From Victivallales bacterium (GTDB lineage: Bacteria > Verrucomicrobiota > Lentisphaeria > Victivallales > GWF2-38-69), in the NCBI GenBank assembly GCA_021733985.1, contig JAIPJT010000004.1, positions 1 through 64,000 of the forward strand: DNA of 64,000 nt, given 5' to 3'. The translations under genes and the position numbers were made by a program. Each line of letters opens with the position of its first letter. Position 1 is the stretch's first letter. Shown one piece after another: positions 30,758-41,306 of this stretch. A model generated the notes under the pieces. It was given only the letters and a program-made list of their open reading frames with translations. It was not told the DNA's origin and made no database searches.

Positions 30758-31795
30758 TTAAACATATAATTGTTTGTAGAGCTCTCTGATTCGGGTGCTT
30801 TCACGGATGATATTAATAGCTATATTTGCGTGATTATAAGCATAACCGTTTCCTACAATCATATCAATATCTTTGCCTACACCTTCAGCGCCCAGGGCTG
30901 CTTTAGTAAAAGATGTGGCCATGCTGAAAAAATATACAGTTCCTCTGTCCTTTGTCATGAGAATTGAACCCATTTCTGTATTCTGTATGTTTACATTATT
31001 TATAACTACATCGCAGAGCTTTCCATTTGTTGCAGCCATAGCTTTTTCATAGCAGCTGATAGCGTCAGTTGCGTCAAGCTTTATGACCTCGTCACATAGT
31101 TCCAAACTTTTCAGGAGTTTAAGGTTTTCATCTGAGTAGTCCATGCCTATGATTTTACCGTTGGGACCGGCGGCTTTTTTAGCGGCATAAGCGCAGAGAA
31201 TGCCTGATTTTCCTGCAGCACCGATAATTGCAACTGTATTGTCTTTTTTGACAAGCCTTTCTGTCTGGGCCGGTGCCCCGGCTACATCTAATACAGCCAA
31301 AGCAAGTGAAGGTGGAATATCATCAGGAAGCTTTGCATATATAGCTGATTCAAATAGTATTGCCTGTCCTTTAATTACAACCTGGTCAATGTTCTTTTTT
31401 ACTTCCACAATTTCATCTATTTTTAATGGAGTCAGTGACAAGGATACCAGGCTTGCAATTCTGTCTCCCTCTTTGACTGAAACTTTAGATTTTATTTTAT
31501 CTCCGATTGCATCTATATTCCCAATAAACATGCCGCCTGAACCGGTCACGGGATTTTTAAGTTTGCCGTTTCTCTTTACTAAATCCAGGATGATTTCCTT
31601 GATTTTTTCACTATCCCCGCCTGCTTGTTCTTTTATCTGTGTAAAACTTGCAGAGTCCACATTTAAAATATCAACATTGACACGTATTTCGTTGTCAAAT
31701 AGCTCCATGTCATTTGAAATTTTTAAAGCTGGCTGAGGCAGTACTCTGGCCGGCTCGATTACTCTGTGGATTCCGTATGGGTTCCCTTGTTTCAT
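30758..31795 (-). CDS. kdd: L-erythro-3,5-diaminohexanoate dehydrogenase
   Basis: 'MKQGNPYGIHRVIEPARVLPQPALKISNDMELFDNEIRVNVDILNVDSASF'; 'AIIGAAGKSGILCAYAA'; the listed ORF starts at 31864, but the RBS-supported Met is at 31795. Confidence 0.92.
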   Translation of the reverse strand: MKQGNPYGIHRVIEPARVLPQPALKISNDMELFDNEIRVNVDILNVDSASFTQIKEQAGGDSEKIKEIILDLVKRNGKLKNPVTGSGGMFIGNIDAIGDKIKSKVSVKEGDRIASLVSLSLTPLKIDEIVEVKKNIDQVVIKGQAILFESAIYAKLPDDIPPSLALAVLDVAGAPAQTERLVKKDNTVAIIGAAGKSGILCAYAAKKAAGPNGKIIGMDYSDENLKLLKSLELCDEVIKLDATDAISCYEKAMAATNGKLCDVVINNVNIQNTEMGSILMTKDRGTVYFFSMATSFTKAALGAEGVGKDIDMIVGNGYAYNHANIAINIIRESTRIRELYKQLYV

Positions 31796-31817
31796 GTTAC
31801 CTGTTCCTTTGTTTGTT

Positions 31818-32636
31818 TTAATTTTTAAGTTTAAACATTTCTCTGACATCTGCGGGCGTTGCAACAGAATATCCTGCGGCTTTGGATATTTTTGCAGCTC
31901 GTTCTACAAGCTGAGCATTGCTTTCGGCTAAAATACCTTTATCGAAATATATATTGTCTTCAAAGCCTACGCGCATAAAACCGCCAAGAGCAAGAGCTCC
32001 GTAATGGGCTTCAAGTGCTGCTTTGCCGCCAATGCCTATTACTGTCCAGCAAGTGCTTTCCGGCAGTCTCCTTACAAAAAAGCCAAGAGTTTCGACATCA
32101 TATTTTGCCGCACCAGGGACATTTAAAACAAAACTGTAATGGTAAGGCGGTTCTATGAGTCCTTCTTTAACAAGGAGATTTGCAGAATAAACATGGGACA
32201 AGTCAAAACATTCGAGAGTAGGTTTAACATTCTGTCTTTTCATTTCTTTAGCAAATTGCCGCATAATAGGCAAAGTATTGACAATATATTCATTTCCGAA
32301 ATTCACTGTTCCGCAGTCAAGAGATGCCATTTCTGGTTTCAGTGAAACAACTTCAAGTCTTTCCTCGGGTGACATACCTACACCGCCGCCGGTTGTGACT
32401 TCAATGACTATATCACATTTTTTTCTAATAAGTTCAACTGCTTTTTGGAAAATATTAATATCCATCGTTGCTCTGCCGTCTTTGTCTCTGACATGCAAGT
32501 GGCAGATAGAAGCTCCCTTAAGATATGAATTATAAGTACTTTCTGCTATTTCTTCGGGAGTAACAGGCAGGTTCGGATTATCTTTTTTGGATGTTTCGGC
32601 ACCGCAGACAGCCACAGTAATGACCATTTTTTTCAT
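31818..32636 (-). CDS. kce: 3-keto-5-aminohexanoate cleavage enzyme
   Basis: BKACE family: 'MVITVAVCGAETSKKDNPNLPVTPEEIAESTYNSYLKGASICHLHVRD'; next to kdd. Confidence 0.95.
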   Translation of the reverse strand: MKKMVITVAVCGAETSKKDNPNLPVTPEEIAESTYNSYLKGASICHLHVRDKDGRATMDINIFQKAVELIRKKCDIVIEVTTGGGVGMSPEERLEVVSLKPEMASLDCGTVNFGNEYIVNTLPIMRQFAKEMKRQNVKPTLECFDLSHVYSANLLVKEGLIEPPYHYSFVLNVPGAAKYDVETLGFFVRRLPESTCWTVIGIGGKAALEAHYGALALGGFMRVGFEDNIYFDKGILAESNAQLVERAAKISKAAGYSVATPADVREMFKLKN

Positions 32637-32671
32637 AGTTAAATTTCTCCTGTATTTTATGATTCCCGTTA

Positions 32672-33346
32672 TTATTTAATATCTATAGTTTTTATATCGT
32701 CAGGAACAAGAAATTCTGCATCTGTTGCTTTTTTGATATCATCTATTGTTGTATCCGGAGCGATTTCTTCTAAAACCATTCCTTTATTAGTTATCTTAAA
32801 AACACCCATTTCGGTTATAATGTCAGTAACTTTTCCTGCAGCTGTTAACGGCAGGGAACATTTTTTCATTATTTTAGGATTCCCTTTTTGAGTGTGCAGC
32901 ATTGCGACTATAACTCTCTTTGCGCCGGAAACAAGGTCCATAGCCCCACCCATTCCGGGAACCATTTTGCCGGGTATTTTCCAATTGGCAATATCGCCGC
33001 TTTGGCTTACCTGTAATGCGCCGAGAATTGTGACATCTACATGTCCGCCGCGGATAATACCAAAAGAAGTAGCCGAATCGAAATACATTGCACCCGGGTT
33101 TGCAGTAACAGGCTGTCCTCCTGCATTTGTAAGCCTGAGATCTTCATTACCTTTTTCAGGAGCAGGTCCCAGTCCCATAATTCCGTTCTCTGACTGAAAA
33201 GTAATATCCTGGCCACTTTCTATATAATTTGCCACCATGGTAGGAAGGCCTATGCCGAGGTTAACTACATTGCCGTCATTAAGCTCTTTTGCGGCTCGTT
33301 TAGCGATTAATACTTTAGGATTCATATTACAGTTTTCCTCCATCAA
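32672..33346 (-). CDS. atoA: CoA-transferase subunit B (butyrate-acetoacetate type; start probably 33325)
   Basis: 'NDGNVVNLGIGLPTMVANYI...ITFQSENGIMGLGPAP'. Confidence 0.92.
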   Translation of the reverse strand: MMEENCNMNPKVLIAKRAAKELNDGNVVNLGIGLPTMVANYIESGQDITFQSENGIMGLGPAPEKGNEDLRLTNAGGQPVTANPGAMYFDSATSFGIIRGGHVDVTILGALQVSQSGDIANWKIPGKMVPGMGGAMDLVSGAKRVIVAMLHTQKGNPKIMKKCSLPLTAAGKVTDIITEMGVFKITNKGMVLEEIAPDTTIDDIKKATDAEFLVPDDIKTIDIK

Positions 33347-34028
33347 CTATATAATCAACAAAGATATGAGAAGTTACTACATTGTCGGGGTCAATCTCGC
33401 CGACTTCAACGATTTTTGCTGCTTCAACAATTACTCTGTCACAAGCCATTGCCATTAGCGGATTAAAGTTTCTTTCAGTTTTGCTGTAGCAGATATTGCC
33501 TTTTCTGTCTACAATAGCACCTTTTATCAGAGCGACATCTCCTCTCATAGGCTTTTCCAGGAGGTAGGTCTTTCTGTCAACAACAATTTTTTGCTTATCT
33601 TTTTCCACTTCTGTTTTTAGTCCTGTCGGTGTTAAAATACCTCCAAGCCCGAAACCAGCGGCTCTGATTTGTTCGGCGAGTGTGCCTTGCGGAACTAAAG
33701 TTACTTTAGCTTCTCCGGTATTCATCTGTTTACCGGTTTCCTTATTTGTCCCAATGTGGGTTGATATAAGATGTGAAATCTGTTTATTGACTATTAATTT
33801 GCCTATACCGGCTTTAATATTACCGATATCTTCTGCGAAGCCTGAGTCATTACATATTACTGTAAGATTTTCAACTTTTTTATTACATAGTTCATCAATA
33901 AGCCTGTGCGGTGCACCGCAGGATAAAAAACCGCCTATCATTAGAGTGTCGCCTTCTCTTATGAGGTCGGCGGCGATTTCTGCTGTAATAATTTTACTTT
34001 TACTCATTTCTATTTCCTGTTTTAGCAA
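33327..34028 (-). CDS. atoD: CoA-transferase subunit A (start probably 34007)
   Basis: 'LIREGDTLMIGGFLSCGAPHRLIDEL...AAGFGLGGILTPTGL'. Confidence 0.92.
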   Translation of the reverse strand: MLKQEIEMSKSKIITAEIAADLIREGDTLMIGGFLSCGAPHRLIDELCNKKVENLTVICNDSGFAEDIGNIKAGIGKLIVNKQISHLISTHIGTNKETGKQMNTGEAKVTLVPQGTLAEQIRAAGFGLGGILTPTGLKTEVEKDKQKIVVDRKTYLLEKPMRGDVALIKGAIVDRKGNICYSKTERNFNPLMAMACDRVIVEAAKIVEVGEIDPDNVVTSHIFVDYIVDGGKL

Positions 34029-34073
34029 ATATAAAATATTAAAAATGACGTTTCCTGTTAACCGATTTAAACT

Positions 34074-35321
34074 TTAGCAGTATTTTTCTTCTAAAGCTTT
34101 AAAGGTTTCATCGATTGACTTTAAGGTGTATTTTAAGTCTTTATCTGTATGTCGATAACAAACATACCAGTGGTGATAAGGCTGCAGGAATACATTTTTT
34201 CTAATCATTTCAGTATAGAATTCTTTCCTGATCGCTTTATATGATCCATCTTCATTCTTTGGAAAAGTGATAAAGAACATCGGCGGAATTCCTGTCAGAT
34301 CTGCATCAATTTTACTTTCAACGAGAATTTTTTTAATGCCGTTCATCAAGTATTCGCCCTTTTTCCATATTGTTTCAAGAATATCATTATTTTCGAGTAG
34401 TTCTATTGTTTTAAGAGCAGCAACATGGCTTATACTGTTGGGGAAGAATGTAGAAGATATGAATACATTTTTGACTGCTTCTTTCATGAATTCTTTTTTT
34501 CCGGCTACAGCTCCTATCGGGTAACCGTTAGCCATAGCTTTGCCGAAAACAGCCATATCAGGTGTTACCCCGTAATATTTCTGTGCACCCCCAAGCGTGA
34601 CTCTGAAACCGGTTCTTATCTCGTCAAAAATAACTACAGCGCCATACCTATGTGCAAGTTCCTTAACACTTTCCAGATATCCGGGTTTGGGAGCTTCCAT
34701 AGGTTTTGCAGTCGGATGCGCAAAAGGGGTGATAATAACCGCTGCTGTATTGTTCTCATGTTCTTTCAGTAAACTTTCGAGATTTTCAAGATCATTATAA
34801 TGAAATTCGTGAATATCTTCATAAACTTTTTTAGGGACTCCGCCTTTTACTTCTACGCACCAGTTATGCCACCCGTGATATCCGCATCTTAATACTTTTG
34901 TCTTCTGTGTATAGGATCGGGCTATTCTTATTGCGCTTGTTGTTGCATCTGAGCCGGTTGTTACAAAAAGGCTCATTTCTGCGCAGGGAATGTGTTCACG
35001 CATTTTTACAGCCAAATCATTCTGAAATTTCTGAGTTAAGGAAAAACAAAATCCTTTTTCTCTTATTTGTTTAATAACGGCTTCATCGATTTCTTCTTCT
35101 CTGTATCCTAAAAGTATCGGGCCGTATGCACAAAGGTAATCAATATATTCATTACCGTCAATATCTTCTATTCTGCCGCCTTTAGCTTTGTCAAAATAAA
35201 TAGGATATTCACCTTCTACAAAGTTATAAGGCCTTCTAATCCCGAGTACACCGCCGGGGATATTTTCTTTGCCTCTTTCGTATTCATTGAGTGAATTGGT
35301 GAGATTCAGCTTTTCTGTCAT
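34074..35321 (-). CDS. Class-III (GSA-like) PLP aminotransferase; candidate 3-aminobutyryl-CoA beta-transaminase
   Basis: 'VTTGSDATTSAIRIARSYTQKTKVLRCGYHGWHNW', 'FDEIRTGFRVTLGGAQKYYGVTPDMAVFGKAMANGYPIGAVAG' (PLP Lys). Confidence 0.85.
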   Translation of the reverse strand: MTEKLNLTNSLNEYERGKENIPGGVLGIRRPYNFVEGEYPIYFDKAKGGRIEDIDGNEYIDYLCAYGPILLGYREEEIDEAVIKQIREKGFCFSLTQKFQNDLAVKMREHIPCAEMSLFVTTGSDATTSAIRIARSYTQKTKVLRCGYHGWHNWCVEVKGGVPKKVYEDIHEFHYNDLENLESLLKEHENNTAAVIITPFAHPTAKPMEAPKPGYLESVKELAHRYGAVVIFDEIRTGFRVTLGGAQKYYGVTPDMAVFGKAMANGYPIGAVAGKKEFMKEAVKNVFISSTFFPNSISHVAALKTIELLENNDILETIWKKGEYLMNGIKKILVESKIDADLTGIPPMFFITFPKNEDGSYKAIRKEFYTEMIRKNVFLQPYHHWYVCYRHTDKDLKYTLKSIDETFKALEEKYC

Positions 35322-35455
35322 AATTAACTCCTAATGTTATTTTTTATCCAAAAACTGATATTTGTGAGCCTCTGAAAAATAATGATATCATTGTATATTT
35401 TCATTACAATAAAAAAAATAATTTACTATTGAAAATAAAAAAAATATATAACTAA

Positions 35456-35477
35456 AAGTCAAACAAATAATTGACTT
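35456..35477. promoter_or_regulatory. Inverted repeat AAGTCAA-N8-TTGACTT in the lysine operon/regulator divergent promoter region
   Basis: Perfect 7-bp arms read directly. Confidence 0.45.
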
Positions 35478-35529
35478 ATAAATTAATTAATATTTATTTG
35501 AATAAAAAAGATAAATAAAGGAAGGTGAA

Positions 35530-37095
35530 ATGTTACTATACTATAAAAAATTAAGATCACTAAGAAAAGCCACAGGCTTACAGACCAAAGTGTTTTGTGA
35601 ACGCATAGGTGTTTCAGTTTCAACTTTGTGGCACTGGGAGAAAGGCAGTAAAACGCCATCAGAGAAAAGAGTTAGAAAATTAGCGAAAGTTTTATGCGTA
35701 TCGGTTGATGAAATATCGGATCTGACTCCTGAATACAAAAAATCAGATCAGGATCTGTCTGAGATAATCAATATCTGGCGTGACAATTCGGGTTTGAGTA
35801 TGAAGGAATCGGAAGCCGAGTTTAATATACTTATAAATAAATTAATTAGGCAGCATAAAAACCTGATTCAGCATTCCTTAATAACAAAAGCAATACTTTC
35901 ATCTATTAATTCAATTATATATATTAAAGACATCAATCAAAAATATTTAGTTGCCAATGATGCTTTTATTGAATTATTGGGATTGATTAATGGTTACAGG
36001 GTTGACGGAAAAACAGATTTTGATTTTTATAATAGTACAGAAGCTAAAGAGATTATTAATCAGGACAATCAGGTTCTTTCTACTGGTAAGCCCATAACAA
36101 ATTTAAACAGTTTTATGCCCGGTACAAAAAAGAAGAGACATGCATTAATTTCAAAGTTTCCAATTCTTGATTCAGAGAATAAAATTGTAGGACTTATTGG
36201 GACTTACAATGATATTACAGAAATGAAAAAGGCGGGAAGAGTAAGAGAGATACTTGAAATATATGTGGGGGCGATGACAGACTGCTTATCTGTTTTTTTC
36301 AGTCACAATTATAAGTACATATTTGTAAATAATGCTTATGCAGATATTTTCGGATATCCTGTAGAAAAATTTTATGAGGGTGGACTGATTGATTTTTTTG
36401 CTGAAAAATGTGTTCATCCTGATGACAGGGAACAAGAAAAAAAATATTTAAAGGAAAAAAACTGGCCTAAACAACGTATTTACAGGATTATTAAACCGAA
36501 CGGTGATGTCAGGTGGCTGGAAGGAAGTGTGAACAGAAGAAAATATTTTGGTAAGGAATGCTGTATTTCAGTTAACCGTGATATAACAGAAAGAGTTTAC
36601 GAATCTGCCTTTAGCGACCTGTTCGGGCTTATACTGGAACATTCTGATGATGTCCTGTGGATTAGAGATAAAACAGAAAATGAAGGGTTGGTTTTTGTAT
36701 CAGTTTCTGTCAGAAAACTTTATGGTCATTCAGAAGATATTTTTTACAAAGATTCATTTTTTTGGTTAAATAAATGTCTTTATTCAAAAGATAAAACTGT
36801 ATGGTTATTAAACGAAGAAAACAGTTCTCTCCGGGACTATAAAAAGGAATACAGGATATATGATTCTAAACAGCAGCTTAAGTGGATAGAATTAACATGC
36901 TTCGAATACAAATTTTTAGGTAAAGAGTGTTATTGTTATCTTGAAAAAAATATTACTGATAAAAAGGCTGTGGAAAAGTCAAAGGAAAATGAAAGCCTAA
37001 GAAAGGTTGCGAAAAAACTAAGAAAAATGGATTTTAATACAGATTTAATTTCCGAGATAACAGAATTAAGTAGAAAACAAATTGAAGTTTTATAG
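35530..37095 (+). CDS. XRE-family HTH-PAS fusion regulator (paralog 3), multiple PAS domains, divergent from the lysine operon
   Basis: 'LRKATGLQTKVFCERIGVSVSTLWHWEKGSKTPSEKRVRKLAKVLCVSVDEISDL' plus PAS repeats 'IYIKDINQKYLVANDAFI...GKTDFDFYN...PGTKKKRHALISKFPILD'. Confidence 0.9.
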   Translation: MLLYYKKLRSLRKATGLQTKVFCERIGVSVSTLWHWEKGSKTPSEKRVRKLAKVLCVSVDEISDLTPEYKKSDQDLSEIINIWRDNSGLSMKESEAEFNILINKLIRQHKNLIQHSLITKAILSSINSIIYIKDINQKYLVANDAFIELLGLINGYRVDGKTDFDFYNSTEAKEIINQDNQVLSTGKPITNLNSFMPGTKKKRHALISKFPILDSENKIVGLIGTYNDITEMKKAGRVREILEIYVGAMTDCLSVFFSHNYKYIFVNNAYADIFGYPVEKFYEGGLIDFFAEKCVHPDDREQEKKYLKEKNWPKQRIYRIIKPNGDVRWLEGSVNRRKYFGKECCISVNRDITERVYESAFSDLFGLILEHSDDVLWIRDKTENEGLVFVSVSVRKLYGHSEDIFYKDSFFWLNKCLYSKDKTVWLLNEENSSLRDYKKEYRIYDSKQQLKWIELTCFEYKFLGKECYCYLEKNITDKKAVEKSKENESLRKVAKKLRKMDFNTDLISEITELSRKQIEVL

Positions 37096-37145
37096 TTTTA
37101 TAAGTTTACCGAATAACTTTTTTATAAAGGGAATTTAAAATATCT

Positions 37146-37538
37146 ATGAATAATAATAAAAAATATATTTACAAAGAGGGGTTTAATTTTAATTTTGATA
37201 ATTCCGCCTGTGAACATTGCGGAGGAAAATGCTGTTCCGGAGAGAGCGGTTATATCTGGATAACTCAGGCGGAAATAAAAAAAACAGCTGAATATTTAGA
37301 TGTTAAATTAAATACTTTTTTTACAGAATATTTAAGATTTAAAAATGGTAGTTATACTATAAAAGATATTAAGTACGGTGGTTATTATTCCTGCCTCTTT
37401 TTTGATAGAGAAGAAAATAAATGTCTAATATATCCGGTTAGACCTTTACAGTGTAGAACATACCCGTTCTGGGAAATGTATATGGGAGATTCTGAAGAAT
37501 TATTTGATGATTGTCCAGGTGTAAAAAAGCTTCCATGA
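37146..37538 (+). CDS. YkgJ-family zinc/iron-chelating Cys-cluster protein
   Basis: 'CEHCGGKCCSGESGYIWIT...CLIYPVRPLQCRTYPFW'. Confidence 0.85.
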   Translation: MNNNKKYIYKEGFNFNFDNSACEHCGGKCCSGESGYIWITQAEIKKTAEYLDVKLNTFFTEYLRFKNGSYTIKDIKYGGYYSCLFFDREENKCLIYPVRPLQCRTYPFWEMYMGDSEELFDDCPGVKKLP

Positions 37539-37561
37539 AACAGGGTGCATGCACCCTGTTT
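37538..37561. terminator. 24-nt perfect palindrome aaacagggtgcatgcaccctgttt plus T-run
   Basis: Read directly; followed by ttgttt; lies between convergent genes. Confidence 0.8.
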
Positions 37562-37607
37562 TTGTTTCAGAAAAGATTAAACTTCGCTGAACGAAGAACA
37601 GCATTAA

Positions 37608-38855
37608 CTATCTCCTGTTCAAATTCTGTATATTTTCCTCGAGCAGGGTTGCCACTCCTTCTGATGGAGTAAAAAATTTATATGTGTTTTTACAGATATT
37701 ACATCTTCCGCAGTCTGAAGAGGTATCTGATGGCTGAGTATATACTGTTATTGTACCTTCATAGTTACGCAGTATGAGTTTTTTATCAGATCTCGAAATT
37801 ACATAGTTGGGCATTACCGGTATTTTACCACCTCCGCCTGGTGCATCTACAACGTAAGTCGGAACAGCCATTCCGGAAGTATGGCCTCTTAAATTTTCGA
37901 TTATTTCAATACCTTTTCCTACGGAAGTTCTGAAATGACTTATTCCTGTAGATAGATCACATTGATATATATAGTACGGTTTTACTCTTATTTTCAAAAG
38001 TTCATGCATTAACTCTTTCATAATAAAAGGACAGTCGTTTACATCACGCAGCAGTACGGTTTGATTGCCCACAGGGACCCCGTTCTCAGTAAGTTTGTCG
38101 CAGGCGATTTTTGCTTCTTCTGTTATTTCGTCCGGATGATTAAAGTGAGTATTGAAGAAAATAGGCTGATATTTTTTTATAATATTTACAAGGTTGTCTG
38201 TTATTCTCTGCGGCATAACTACAGGAGTTCTGCTTCCAATTCTGATGATTTCGACATGATTAATATTTCTTAAAGTTTCCAGAATATACTCAATCCTGCT
38301 ATCCGGTAATGTTAAAGGATCACCTCCGGAAACAATTACATCCCTGATCTGCTTATTTTTTTTAATATAATTTACAGCATCCAAAAAACATTCCTTATTA
38401 AAACCGCTTTCATCACAACCTACAACTCTGCGGCGAGTACAGTGTCTGCAGTACATAGAGCATTTTCTTGTAACAAGGAGGAGAACTCTGTCAGGGTATC
38501 GATGAGTTAAACCTGGTACAGGTGAATCTATATCTTCATGGAGTGGGTCAGAAATATCCGAATCATCTTTAATTAGTTCCTGTATTCTTGGGACAGCCTG
38601 TAATCTGATGGGGCATCTAATATAATTTTCATCGATGAGTGCGGCGTAATAGGGGGTAATTGCCATTTTGAATTTTTTTAAACTTATGGCCAGCTGTTCT
38701 TTTTCCTTTTCATCAATTGTAATGATCTTTGAAAGAGACGAAATGTCTTTAATTGTGTTATTTAACTGCCATTTCCAGTCATTCCAGTCTTCGTCTTTTA
38801 CATCCTTAAATATCGGAATATGCTTGTGGAGTACTTTTCTGTAGATCTTCTTCAT
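37608..38855 (-). CDS. kamA: Lysine 2,3-aminomutase (radical SAM)
   Basis: 'RVLLLVTRKCSMYCRHCTRRRVVG' CxxxCxxC; 'DVIVSGGDPLTLPD'; 'YVVDAPGGGGKIP'. Confidence 0.95.
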   Translation of the reverse strand: MKKIYRKVLHKHIPIFKDVKDEDWNDWKWQLNNTIKDISSLSKIITIDEKEKEQLAISLKKFKMAITPYYAALIDENYIRCPIRLQAVPRIQELIKDDSDISDPLHEDIDSPVPGLTHRYPDRVLLLVTRKCSMYCRHCTRRRVVGCDESGFNKECFLDAVNYIKKNKQIRDVIVSGGDPLTLPDSRIEYILETLRNINHVEIIRIGSRTPVVMPQRITDNLVNIIKKYQPIFFNTHFNHPDEITEEAKIACDKLTENGVPVGNQTVLLRDVNDCPFIMKELMHELLKIRVKPYYIYQCDLSTGISHFRTSVGKGIEIIENLRGHTSGMAVPTYVVDAPGGGGKIPVMPNYVISRSDKKLILRNYEGTITVYTQPSDTSSDCGRCNICKNTYKFFTPSEGVATLLEENIQNLNRR

Positions 38856-39127: not shown

Positions 39128-40558
39128 ATGCCTGATATTGGCACTATATTTAGAGTAGGAGAAACTTTAAAACGAGCTATTCAGGCAGACGCTGTATTCA
39201 GACAGTCTGACCAGGAACATGTAGATAGAATTGTCAGATCTGTATACAGAACTGTAATGAATAATAGAATTAAGTTTGCTAAAATGGCCGTAGAAGAGAC
39301 TGGACTTGGACGCTGGGAGGATAAAGTCTTAAAGACTGTAGTCGCATCCCAGTTTGTTTACGAATATATCAAAGATAGAAAAACTGTCGGAGTTGTTTCT
39401 GACGATGTAGAGAAAGGGATAACTGAAATAGCTCACCCTATAGGAACGGTTCTCGGAATAGTATCAAAGACGGATCCCATTGCTTCAGCAGTTTTTAAGA
39501 TAATTATAGCAATGAAAACAAGAAACCCTATAATTATTGCTTCTGACCCAAAAGCCGTTAAGACTACAGAAGCTGTTTGTGATTTATGTTATGAAGCAGC
39601 ATTAAAGGAAGATGCTCCCGAAGACTGTATTCAGTGTTTTTATGATACTTCAACAGATGAGTTTGAAAACTTAATAGCGGACAAACGTTTGAACCTGATT
39701 ATTGCTGCCGGAGACGGAGCAGTAAAAGAAAATAATAATGTTAAAGCACCTGTAATTGGAAGCGGCAGCGGCAATGTTCCCGTTTACATTGCCGAAGACA
39801 TTGACCCTGATTTTGTTGCTAAGCAAATTATCGATTCAAAAGTTTTTGACCAGGGTGTAATGAATTCAAGCGAACAGGCTGTTGTAATAAACAAAAATAT
39901 TACAAAACAGTTTAAAACTGCAATAGAGAAAAAGGGCGGACATTTTGTAACAGAAAAAGAAAAGAAAATGTTAATCGATTATGTTCTGGAAAAAGGAGAT
40001 AAGGTAAATAAAGATATAACAGGCCAAAGTCCACAGATTATTGCAGCAAACTCAGGCTTCAAAGTACCTGAAACTACAAAATTATTAATTGTACCTCTGA
40101 AAGGTGTGGGAAGTGAATATCCGCTCTCGGAGAAAGTGCTCGCACCTTTAATAGCGTTTTACGAAGTAGAAGATTTTCATGAGGCTATTAATGTTTGTAT
40201 CGATTTGAATTATTATGAAGGTATTGGTCATACAGTATGCATTTATTCTAATGACCATGATAAAATAAAGAAATTTGCTATGGAGATGAATGCCGGGCGA
40301 GTTATTGTAAACAGCCCTAGTTCAATGGGTGCTGTTGGTGGAATATACAATCTTCTGCCTCCATCTTTTTCATTGGCATGCGGAGCTGTTGGGAAGACTA
40401 TAACTATGGATAATGTTTCCATAAAGCATCTTATAAATTTACAGAGAATCTCGAGAAGAAGAATAAATCAGAGGTTACGGGATTTTGACAGGAAGATGTA
40501 CATTGATGAAAGTAAAAATATAGATGAAATAGAGAGGTTGTTTAATAAAAACTATTAA
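39128..40558 (+). CDS. AdhE/acylating-type aldehyde dehydrogenase homolog with degenerate active site
   Basis: 'EIAHPIGTVLGIVSKTDPIASAVFKIIIAMKTRNPIII' and 'FDQGVMNSSEQAVVI' align to the AdhE ALDH domain (…TTNPT… and FDxGxICASEQ), with N->D and C->N. Confidence 0.85.
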   Translation: MPDIGTIFRVGETLKRAIQADAVFRQSDQEHVDRIVRSVYRTVMNNRIKFAKMAVEETGLGRWEDKVLKTVVASQFVYEYIKDRKTVGVVSDDVEKGITEIAHPIGTVLGIVSKTDPIASAVFKIIIAMKTRNPIIIASDPKAVKTTEAVCDLCYEAALKEDAPEDCIQCFYDTSTDEFENLIADKRLNLIIAAGDGAVKENNNVKAPVIGSGSGNVPVYIAEDIDPDFVAKQIIDSKVFDQGVMNSSEQAVVINKNITKQFKTAIEKKGGHFVTEKEKKMLIDYVLEKGDKVNKDITGQSPQIIAANSGFKVPETTKLLIVPLKGVGSEYPLSEKVLAPLIAFYEVEDFHEAINVCIDLNYYEGIGHTVCIYSNDHDKIKKFAMEMNAGRVIVNSPSSMGAVGGIYNLLPPSFSLACGAVGKTITMDNVSIKHLINLQRISRRRINQRLRDFDRKMYIDESKNIDEIERLFNKNY

Positions 40559-40588
40559 TATTTTATATAGAATATATGAGGAGGAAAC

Positions 40589-40882
40589 ATGGCTGTTACT
40601 TTAAATCGTAATGATGGGACAGTAAATTTTGTTTTTGAAGGCAGAATGGACACAATAAAATGTATGTCGGCAGAGAAAGATGTAGTAGAAAATATTAATG
40701 AGAATGACCAGGTAGTATTCGACCTCAAAGAGGTTGATTATATTGCATCTTCTTTTCTAAGATTATGCGGTAGAGCATCGAATACTGTTGGTGTGGAAAA
40801 TTTTTCTGTTATAAATGTATCTCCCTCTGTTAAAAAAGTATTTAAAATAGCCGGCCTTGCCAACAGATTAAATATCAAATAA
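40589..40882 (+). CDS. STAS-domain anti-sigma factor antagonist (RsbV/SpoIIAA-like)
   Basis: 'DQVVFDLKEVDYIASSFLRLCGRASNTV'; good RBS gaggagg. Confidence 0.85.
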   Translation: MAVTLNRNDGTVNFVFEGRMDTIKCMSAEKDVVENINENDQVVFDLKEVDYIASSFLRLCGRASNTVGVENFSVINVSPSVKKVFKIAGLANRLNIK

Positions 40883-40898
40883 TTGCCTTTAAAATTAA

Positions 40899-41306
40899 AT
40901 GAAAAGAATAAAGAAAAAGGCAACATTCGAGAATTTAGAGGAAGTCCTGCAATTTGTGAAGGTCGGTGCAAAAGCGTTTGGTTTTGACAAAGCTGCTATT
41001 GCCGATCTAATTCTTGCCGTTGAAGAGGTTTTGGTCAATATTATTAGCTATGCCTATACAGATCAGTGTAAAAGTGGATACATGGAAGTAAGATATAAAA
41101 ATAATAATAGTTCTTATTCAATAACTTTTCTTGATACCGGCAAAAAATTTGATCCTACTGCAGTAAGTGAGCCAGATACCTCAATTCCTATTAACCAAAG
41201 AAGGATGGGGGGAATGGGAATACACATTGTAAGAAATATTGTCGATAATCTTCAATATAAAAGGGAAGGCGGTAAGAATATTTTCACTATTGAGAAGAAA
41301 AAATAA
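40899..41306 (+). CDS. RsbW/SpoIIAB-like HATPase anti-sigma/serine kinase
   Basis: N box 'LAVEEVLVNIISYAY', 'FLDTGKKFDP', 'RRMGGMGIHIVRNIVD'. Confidence 0.88.
   Translation: MKRIKKKATFENLEEVLQFVKVGAKAFGFDKAAIADLILAVEEVLVNIISYAYTDQCKSGYMEVRYKNNNSSYSITFLDTGKKFDPTAVSEPDTSIPINQRRMGGMGIHIVRNIVDNLQYKREGGKNIFTIEKKK

Follow-up and report, generated by a model that had tools for sequence, protein, structure and literature searches.

Gene organisation of the locus

A three-gene operon is found on the forward strand of the window, the whole 64,000-nucleotide stretch of DNA that was analysed. Its first gene (39128..40558) encodes a 476-aa protein assigned by profiles, alignments and structure prediction to the AdhE-N/EutE-type CoA-acylating aldehyde dehydrogenases (ALDH), with the substitutions C246N, N116D and E336K, and is followed by genes for an RsbV/SpoIIAA-like STAS protein (40589..40882) and an RsbW-like HATPase_c_2 serine kinase (40899..41306). 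Gaps of 30 nt (ALDH–STAS) and 16 nt (STAS–HATPase) bear out the first-pass annotation, which had placed STAS and RsbW-type HATPase genes at short distance on the same strand. Its divergent kamA gene was likewise located, at 37608-38855, and no sigma-factor gene was noticed around the operon among the listed ORFs of the window.

Both downstream products score over their Pfam cut-offs. The STAS protein combines the STAS fold with a phosphorylatable serine, Ser54, which aligns with the phospho-serine of SypA/SpoIIAA, and the kinase retains the N-, G1- and G2-box pattern expected of RsbW/SpoIIAB (EEVLVN, DTGKKFDP and GGMGIHIV). Compared with RsbV/RsbW-type equivalogs, however, both score far under the cut-offs (STAS: TIGR02886, 29.6 versus 114.75, and TIGR00377, 33.9 versus 53.45; kinase: PRK04069, 45.2 versus 145, and TIGR01924, 40.5 versus 155).

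The region 30758-38855 contains, in addition to kamA (lysine 2,3-aminomutase), ORFs resembling by eye CoA-transferase subunits, a class-III aminotransferase and a beta-keto-acid cleavage-type protein, which suggests a lysine-fermentation cluster. An HTH-PAS regulator is encoded beside the kamA-containing cluster at 35530-37095.

Fold and active site of the window ALDH

The 39128-40558 product matches the Pfam Aldedh family above cut-off, and the nearest NCBIfam models are those for acetylating ACDH and AdhE; the AdhE match scores 457.8 bits across the N-terminal half, the cut-off for the complete two-domain protein being 951. It aligns without gaps to the solved acylating ALDHs 5j78 and 3k9d and to AdhE (E 1e-90 to 1e-88), and the fold is common to the AdhE N-terminal ALDH and EutE/ACDH (5j78, 3k9d, 6tqh) over ~440 residues. 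Microcompartment ALDHs such as PduP (4c3s) belong to the same CoA-acylating superfamily but share only ~20% identity with it. An AlphaFold2 model (pLDDT 80, pTM 0.82) has the acetylating ALDH 5j7i as its top structural match in the PDB (E 4e-40, TM 0.85, 36% identity), in agreement with the earlier description of a well-kept fold. By fold and subfamily similarity, the protein is thus a member of the CoA-acylating (AdhE-N/EutE) ALDHs.

The key residues of E. coli AdhE are Cys246, His367 and Glu335 (PMC7080775). Asn at the catalytic Cys position (Asn246, codon aat, 39863..39865) and Asp at the oxyanion Asn of the TNP motif (Asp116, codon gat, 39473..39475) had both been proposed from the sequence, and the ungapped structure alignment upholds both. 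A third loss had escaped that reading, as had a broad erosion of the cofactor loops: the position of the catalytic Glu (Glu335 of E. coli AdhE) is occupied by Lys336 (codon aaa, 40133..40135), with a Glu one residue before it at 335. The catalytic His is kept as His368 (His367 in E. coli AdhE), such that two of the three catalytic residues and the oxyanion Asn are missing. Unlike AdhE, the window ALDH is also a standalone, STAS-linked protein with a family-specific C-terminal tail.

The extent of change was assessed over 81 invariant columns, defined on 27 intact homologues (19 standalone, 8 AdhE). The window ALDH has lost 20 of these positions, which is beyond chance given that each intact homologue loses only 0-8 (median 0) in a leave-one-out control. 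Fifteen of the 20 fall inside active-site windows, which were defined by the motifs that surround the Cys, the TNP, the cofactor loop, the Glu and the His (Fisher p 0.001). Inside these windows, mean identity to the intact standalone members is 0.43, compared with 0.75-0.84 for the intact members themselves, whereas outside them the corresponding values are 0.48 and 0.51-0.64. The conserved GG and AYSSG loops on the NAD side are among the eroded segments. The 39128-40558 product is accordingly predicted to be a fold-intact but catalytically dead ALDH pseudoenzyme.

A substitute catalytic Cys was sought among the seven cysteines (151, 154, 167, 170, 357, 371 and 418) and ruled out, as most are common to intact members and none lies at the nucleophile position. 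Sequencing error was also ruled out, the entire loop and several motifs being changed. An active site rebuilt for different chemistry (e.g. non-redox hydrolysis or thioester binding) could draw on the retained His368, on Cys371, which is new and close to His368 in sequence, and on the Glu at 335; with the oxyanion Asn, catalytic Cys, Glu336 and surrounding loop all replaced, and no replacement Cys for the nucleophile, we regard this as highly improbable.

Linkage of ALDH and STAS genes in related genomes

Standalone orthologues with 39-51% identity to the window ALDH occur in two classes of the phylum: in the window's own class 14 of 198 genomes have one, and in another class 8 of 346. A prepilin-type sequence in one relative tentatively suggests that this phylum is Verrucomicrobiota, with Lentisphaeria. 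A search for conserved gene order, as the first-pass annotation had advised, revealed a STAS gene or domain adjoining or fused to the ALDH in 23 of 24 evaluable loci from 12 family-level groups and two classes, nearly always immediately downstream of it. The one exception (G002a) has an ALDH with no adjoining STAS, in a genome whose second ALDH copy is STAS-flanked. Other flanking genes vary from genome to genome, save in three species of one genus, which argues that the ALDH–STAS linkage is selected and the kamA neighbour incidental. The divergent kamA was not conserved in the relatives' loci, and the suggested tie to amino-acid fermentation finds no conserved link there.

The first-pass annotation had named retention of the Cys/Asn pair by orthologues in the same context as grounds for refutation. 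Cys246 is retained in 20 of 24 scorable orthologues, so that death of the ALDH is not a feature of the module. Since the STAS linkage is found in 23 of 24 loci while nearly all keep Cys246, these alignments and gene orders indicate an ancestral linkage, with the ALDH dying secondarily.

A scan of public genomes with the window protein returned one MAG, with a contig ending at the ALDH. Locus L033, from a MAG labelled Bacteroidetes, encodes an intact ALDH homologue without the terminal NxN tail, and its contig ends before any STAS gene that might follow.

Fusions, kinases and phosphatases

In one genome (G296), ALDH and a STAS domain are encoded in a single 590-aa frame. Fusions of STAS to acetyl-CoA synthetase (Acs) were identified in 10 genomes, at ~770-830 aa and with complete Acs domains, although the evidence for one of the 10 (G456) is a partial match to its STAS end. 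ALDH is present in 8 of these 10 genomes, against 22 of 544 overall (Fisher p 8e-11, a value that ignores relatedness). In G011 and G026 the STAS-Acs and ALDH genes lie on different contigs; in G011, a gene for an Fe-containing alcohol dehydrogenase directly precedes STAS-Acs (L106 204-3711), with ALDH-STAS on another contig. From these gene contents, the apparent theme of the module is ethanol/acetaldehyde/acetyl-CoA/acetate metabolism. Both types of fusion suggest that metabolic enzymes are what STAS acts on. Neither STAS-Acs nor AdhE was found in the window genome, so the enzymes served by the module elsewhere are absent there.

A serine equivalent to SypA Ser56, an established phosphorylation site (PMC10120452), was found in all 33 STAS domains of the module. 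It is the first Ser of a DSSG motif, and the residue after it varies. Genes for candidate kinases and phosphatases are less regular. A HATPase adjoins the module in six loci (the window, G018, G023, G027, G036 and G435), and PP2C-type neighbours occur in about six: SpoIIE-type proteins with a dCache-HAMP-PP2C architecture in G018 and G023, a SpoIIE-type REC-PP2C with a receiver domain in G435, and further PP2C-type proteins in G027, G002b and G648. Five PP2Cs are encoded elsewhere in the window genome, which also has five STAS and several HATPase matches.

Because the linked PP2Cs carry sensor domains of their own (dCache-HAMP or receiver), the ALDH is not needed as an input. This bears on the original proposal that the dead ALDH is a sensor of NADH, acyl-CoA or aldehyde feeding the STAS/kinase switch; the output of the switch would then be a sigma factor or other regulator. 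Pseudoenzymes can turn into sensors, the ALDH sits in a stable operon with kinase and STAS, and the protein keeps its overall fold, including part of the Rossmann fold, and His368. However, Glu336 and the GG and AYSSG loops of the NAD side are eroded along with the Cys, the majority of orthologues have an intact active site, and a second enzyme, Acs, is also found fused to STAS. The coupling of a dead ALDH to a partner switch therefore stands, but the NAD(H)-sensing role is weakened; ligand sensing is possible but unlikely, and is less favoured than a role as a docking or regulatory subunit.

At L057 10338-14320 (G002), two PP2C proteins and fragments of a similar protein adjoin a STAS-ALDH-STAS arrangement, which suggests recent duplication and decay.

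A C-terminal tail on STAS-linked ALDHs

The window ALDH ends in a segment (..YIDES..IERLFNKNY, 40454..40555) of a kind found only in the STAS-linked type of ALDH. Wherever the C-terminus of an unfused, STAS-adjacent ALDH can be read, a Y/F-x-D-E-like segment is followed by a terminal [YF][ND]xNx, and this holds for 4 of 4 dead ALDHs. In the G296 fusion the end of the tail is replaced by the linker to STAS. The tail is absent from AdhE and from SauS-type ALDHs (G009, G094). From this distribution, we infer that the tail may be a STAS-docking element.

Retention of the tail also bears on a second alternative, in which STAS senses flux through active ALDH or Acs in the relatives, transcription is the output, and the link is vestigial in the window lineage. 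Enzymes acting as trigger proteins have precedents, and the lack of STAS-Acs and AdhE in the window genome fits such a scheme. However, preservation of the complete three-gene operon, the fold and the tail is not what one would expect of a vestige, and the genes noticed next to the module included none for a sigma factor, making this distinctly unlikely.

A second lineage of dead ALDHs

Active-site losses were also seen in family f37, in which the Cys position is Phe (G351), Leu (G416) or Phe (G414) and the Glu336 position is Ala, Val or Val, respectively. These ALDHs have lost 18 (G351), 23 (G416) and 18 (G414, a truncated sequence) of the invariant positions, and the three genomes also encode an intact AdhE. 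The ALDH of a fourth f37 genome, G456, has an intact active site and an ORF broken in the assembly (L081, G456:C13), which may be an assembly error. Both dead lineages, the window and f37, retain STAS.

A phylogenetic tree was built from the ALDH sequences without the active-site columns. The best tree has two changes to the dead state, one in the window lineage and one in the f37 clade. A single origin of all dead ALDHs is disfavoured, with placement in one clade costing 26.6 log units, although the AU test is borderline (p 0.050) on account of the long window branch (1.17, compared with a median of 0.29). The exact placement of the window ALDH is unsure for the same reason. Two independent losses of catalysis are likely from these sequences.

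The long branch, the single genome with the window allele and the many conserved residues lost could also signify an ALDH that is simply decaying, its operon partners persisting for other reasons. Against this, the frame is open at full length, its codon-position composition resembles that of the neighbouring genes, identity falls far further below that of intact members inside the active-site windows than outside them, the C-terminal tail is kept, and a second, independent dead clade has likewise been retained. Decay as the whole explanation is very unlikely.

The STAS proteins of G001 are the ones that most resemble the window STAS, whereas the window ALDH groups with other families in the tree. 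This mismatch with the same-family genomes G001 and G002 (L054, L056, L057) reflects either long-branch error or transfer. At two loci of f37 genomes that carry a dead ALDH (L079 5548-8586 and L061 4797-7889), the gene for a full-length AdhE is directly preceded by a STAS gene on the same strand.

Comparison with known partner switches

As in RsbU-RsbV-RsbW and SpoIIAA-SpoIIAB, the parts list comprises a phospho-Ser STAS protein, a HATPase_c_2 kinase and, as neighbours in relatives of the window, SpoIIE-type PP2Cs, but the conserved partner is here a metabolic enzyme rather than a sigma factor. Partner switching is known mainly for sigma-factor control, with few outputs beyond transcription, several of them with unknown targets. 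Non-sigma switches include SypA/SypE, BtrV/BtrW, RbaV and HmpV, whose STAS proteins, as here, have a target that is not an established sigma factor; in the portions of the source consulted, neither ALDH nor acetyl-CoA synthetase appears as a partner or fusion of any of them (PMC8256260). A literature search covering few subscription papers returned none joining a STAS domain with acetyl-CoA synthetase, or an anti-sigma factor antagonist with acetaldehyde dehydrogenase. New here are the ALDH-STAS fusion, the co-occurrence of STAS-Acs fusions with ALDH, the sensor-bearing PP2C neighbours, the tail of STAS-linked ALDHs and the invariant phospho-serine. The association of STAS with enzymes suggests that such switches bind and control metabolic enzymes, beyond transcription. 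The active ALDHs, the ALDH-STAS fusion and the two dead ALDHs form a natural series for asking what a non-sigma STAS protein binds.

A proposed STAS adaptor mechanism

In the reading we prefer, for which the case is about evenly poised, STAS serves C2-metabolism enzymes as a phospho-switchable adaptor, and the dead ALDH has a docking or regulatory role without catalysis. The kinase (40899-41306) would phosphorylate STAS Ser54 and a PP2C phosphatase would reverse this; unphosphorylated STAS would dock on the ALDH, most likely via the C-terminal YxDES...[YF]NxN[YF] tail, and docking would tether or regulate the ALDH, plus STAS-Acs where it is encoded. We infer this direction of signalling from gene context and sequence. 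In the window lineage, the ALDH would have given up its chemistry and been kept as a STAS-binding docking or regulatory subunit, most simply one for docking or titration, whose binding sets the amount of STAS free for the kinase. If this were true, central carbon enzymes would be under direct phospho-switch control through the link of STAS to acylating ALDH and Acs.

Counting against the adaptor reading, a HATPase lies beside the module in only six loci and a PP2C in about six, the window genome lacks STAS-Acs and AdhE, and the dead allele of the window is known from one genome only; that single occurrence and the branch of 1.17 make a late stage of gene decay possible. STAS could also act on an unlinked sigma factor. 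More tentatively, STAS domains, whether on their own or as fusions with ALDH and Acs, might scaffold a C2 metabolon, perhaps by stressosome-like STAS-STAS packing, with the RsbW-type kinase and sensor PP2Cs in control and the dead ALDHs as pure scaffold or regulatory subunits; we think this less probable than not.

Elsewhere in the genome of the window, a distant AMP-binding protein frame of 1191 aa was noted (L087, G000:C35:25380-26408), adjoined by a PP2C gene on the opposite strand (C35:24774-25337).
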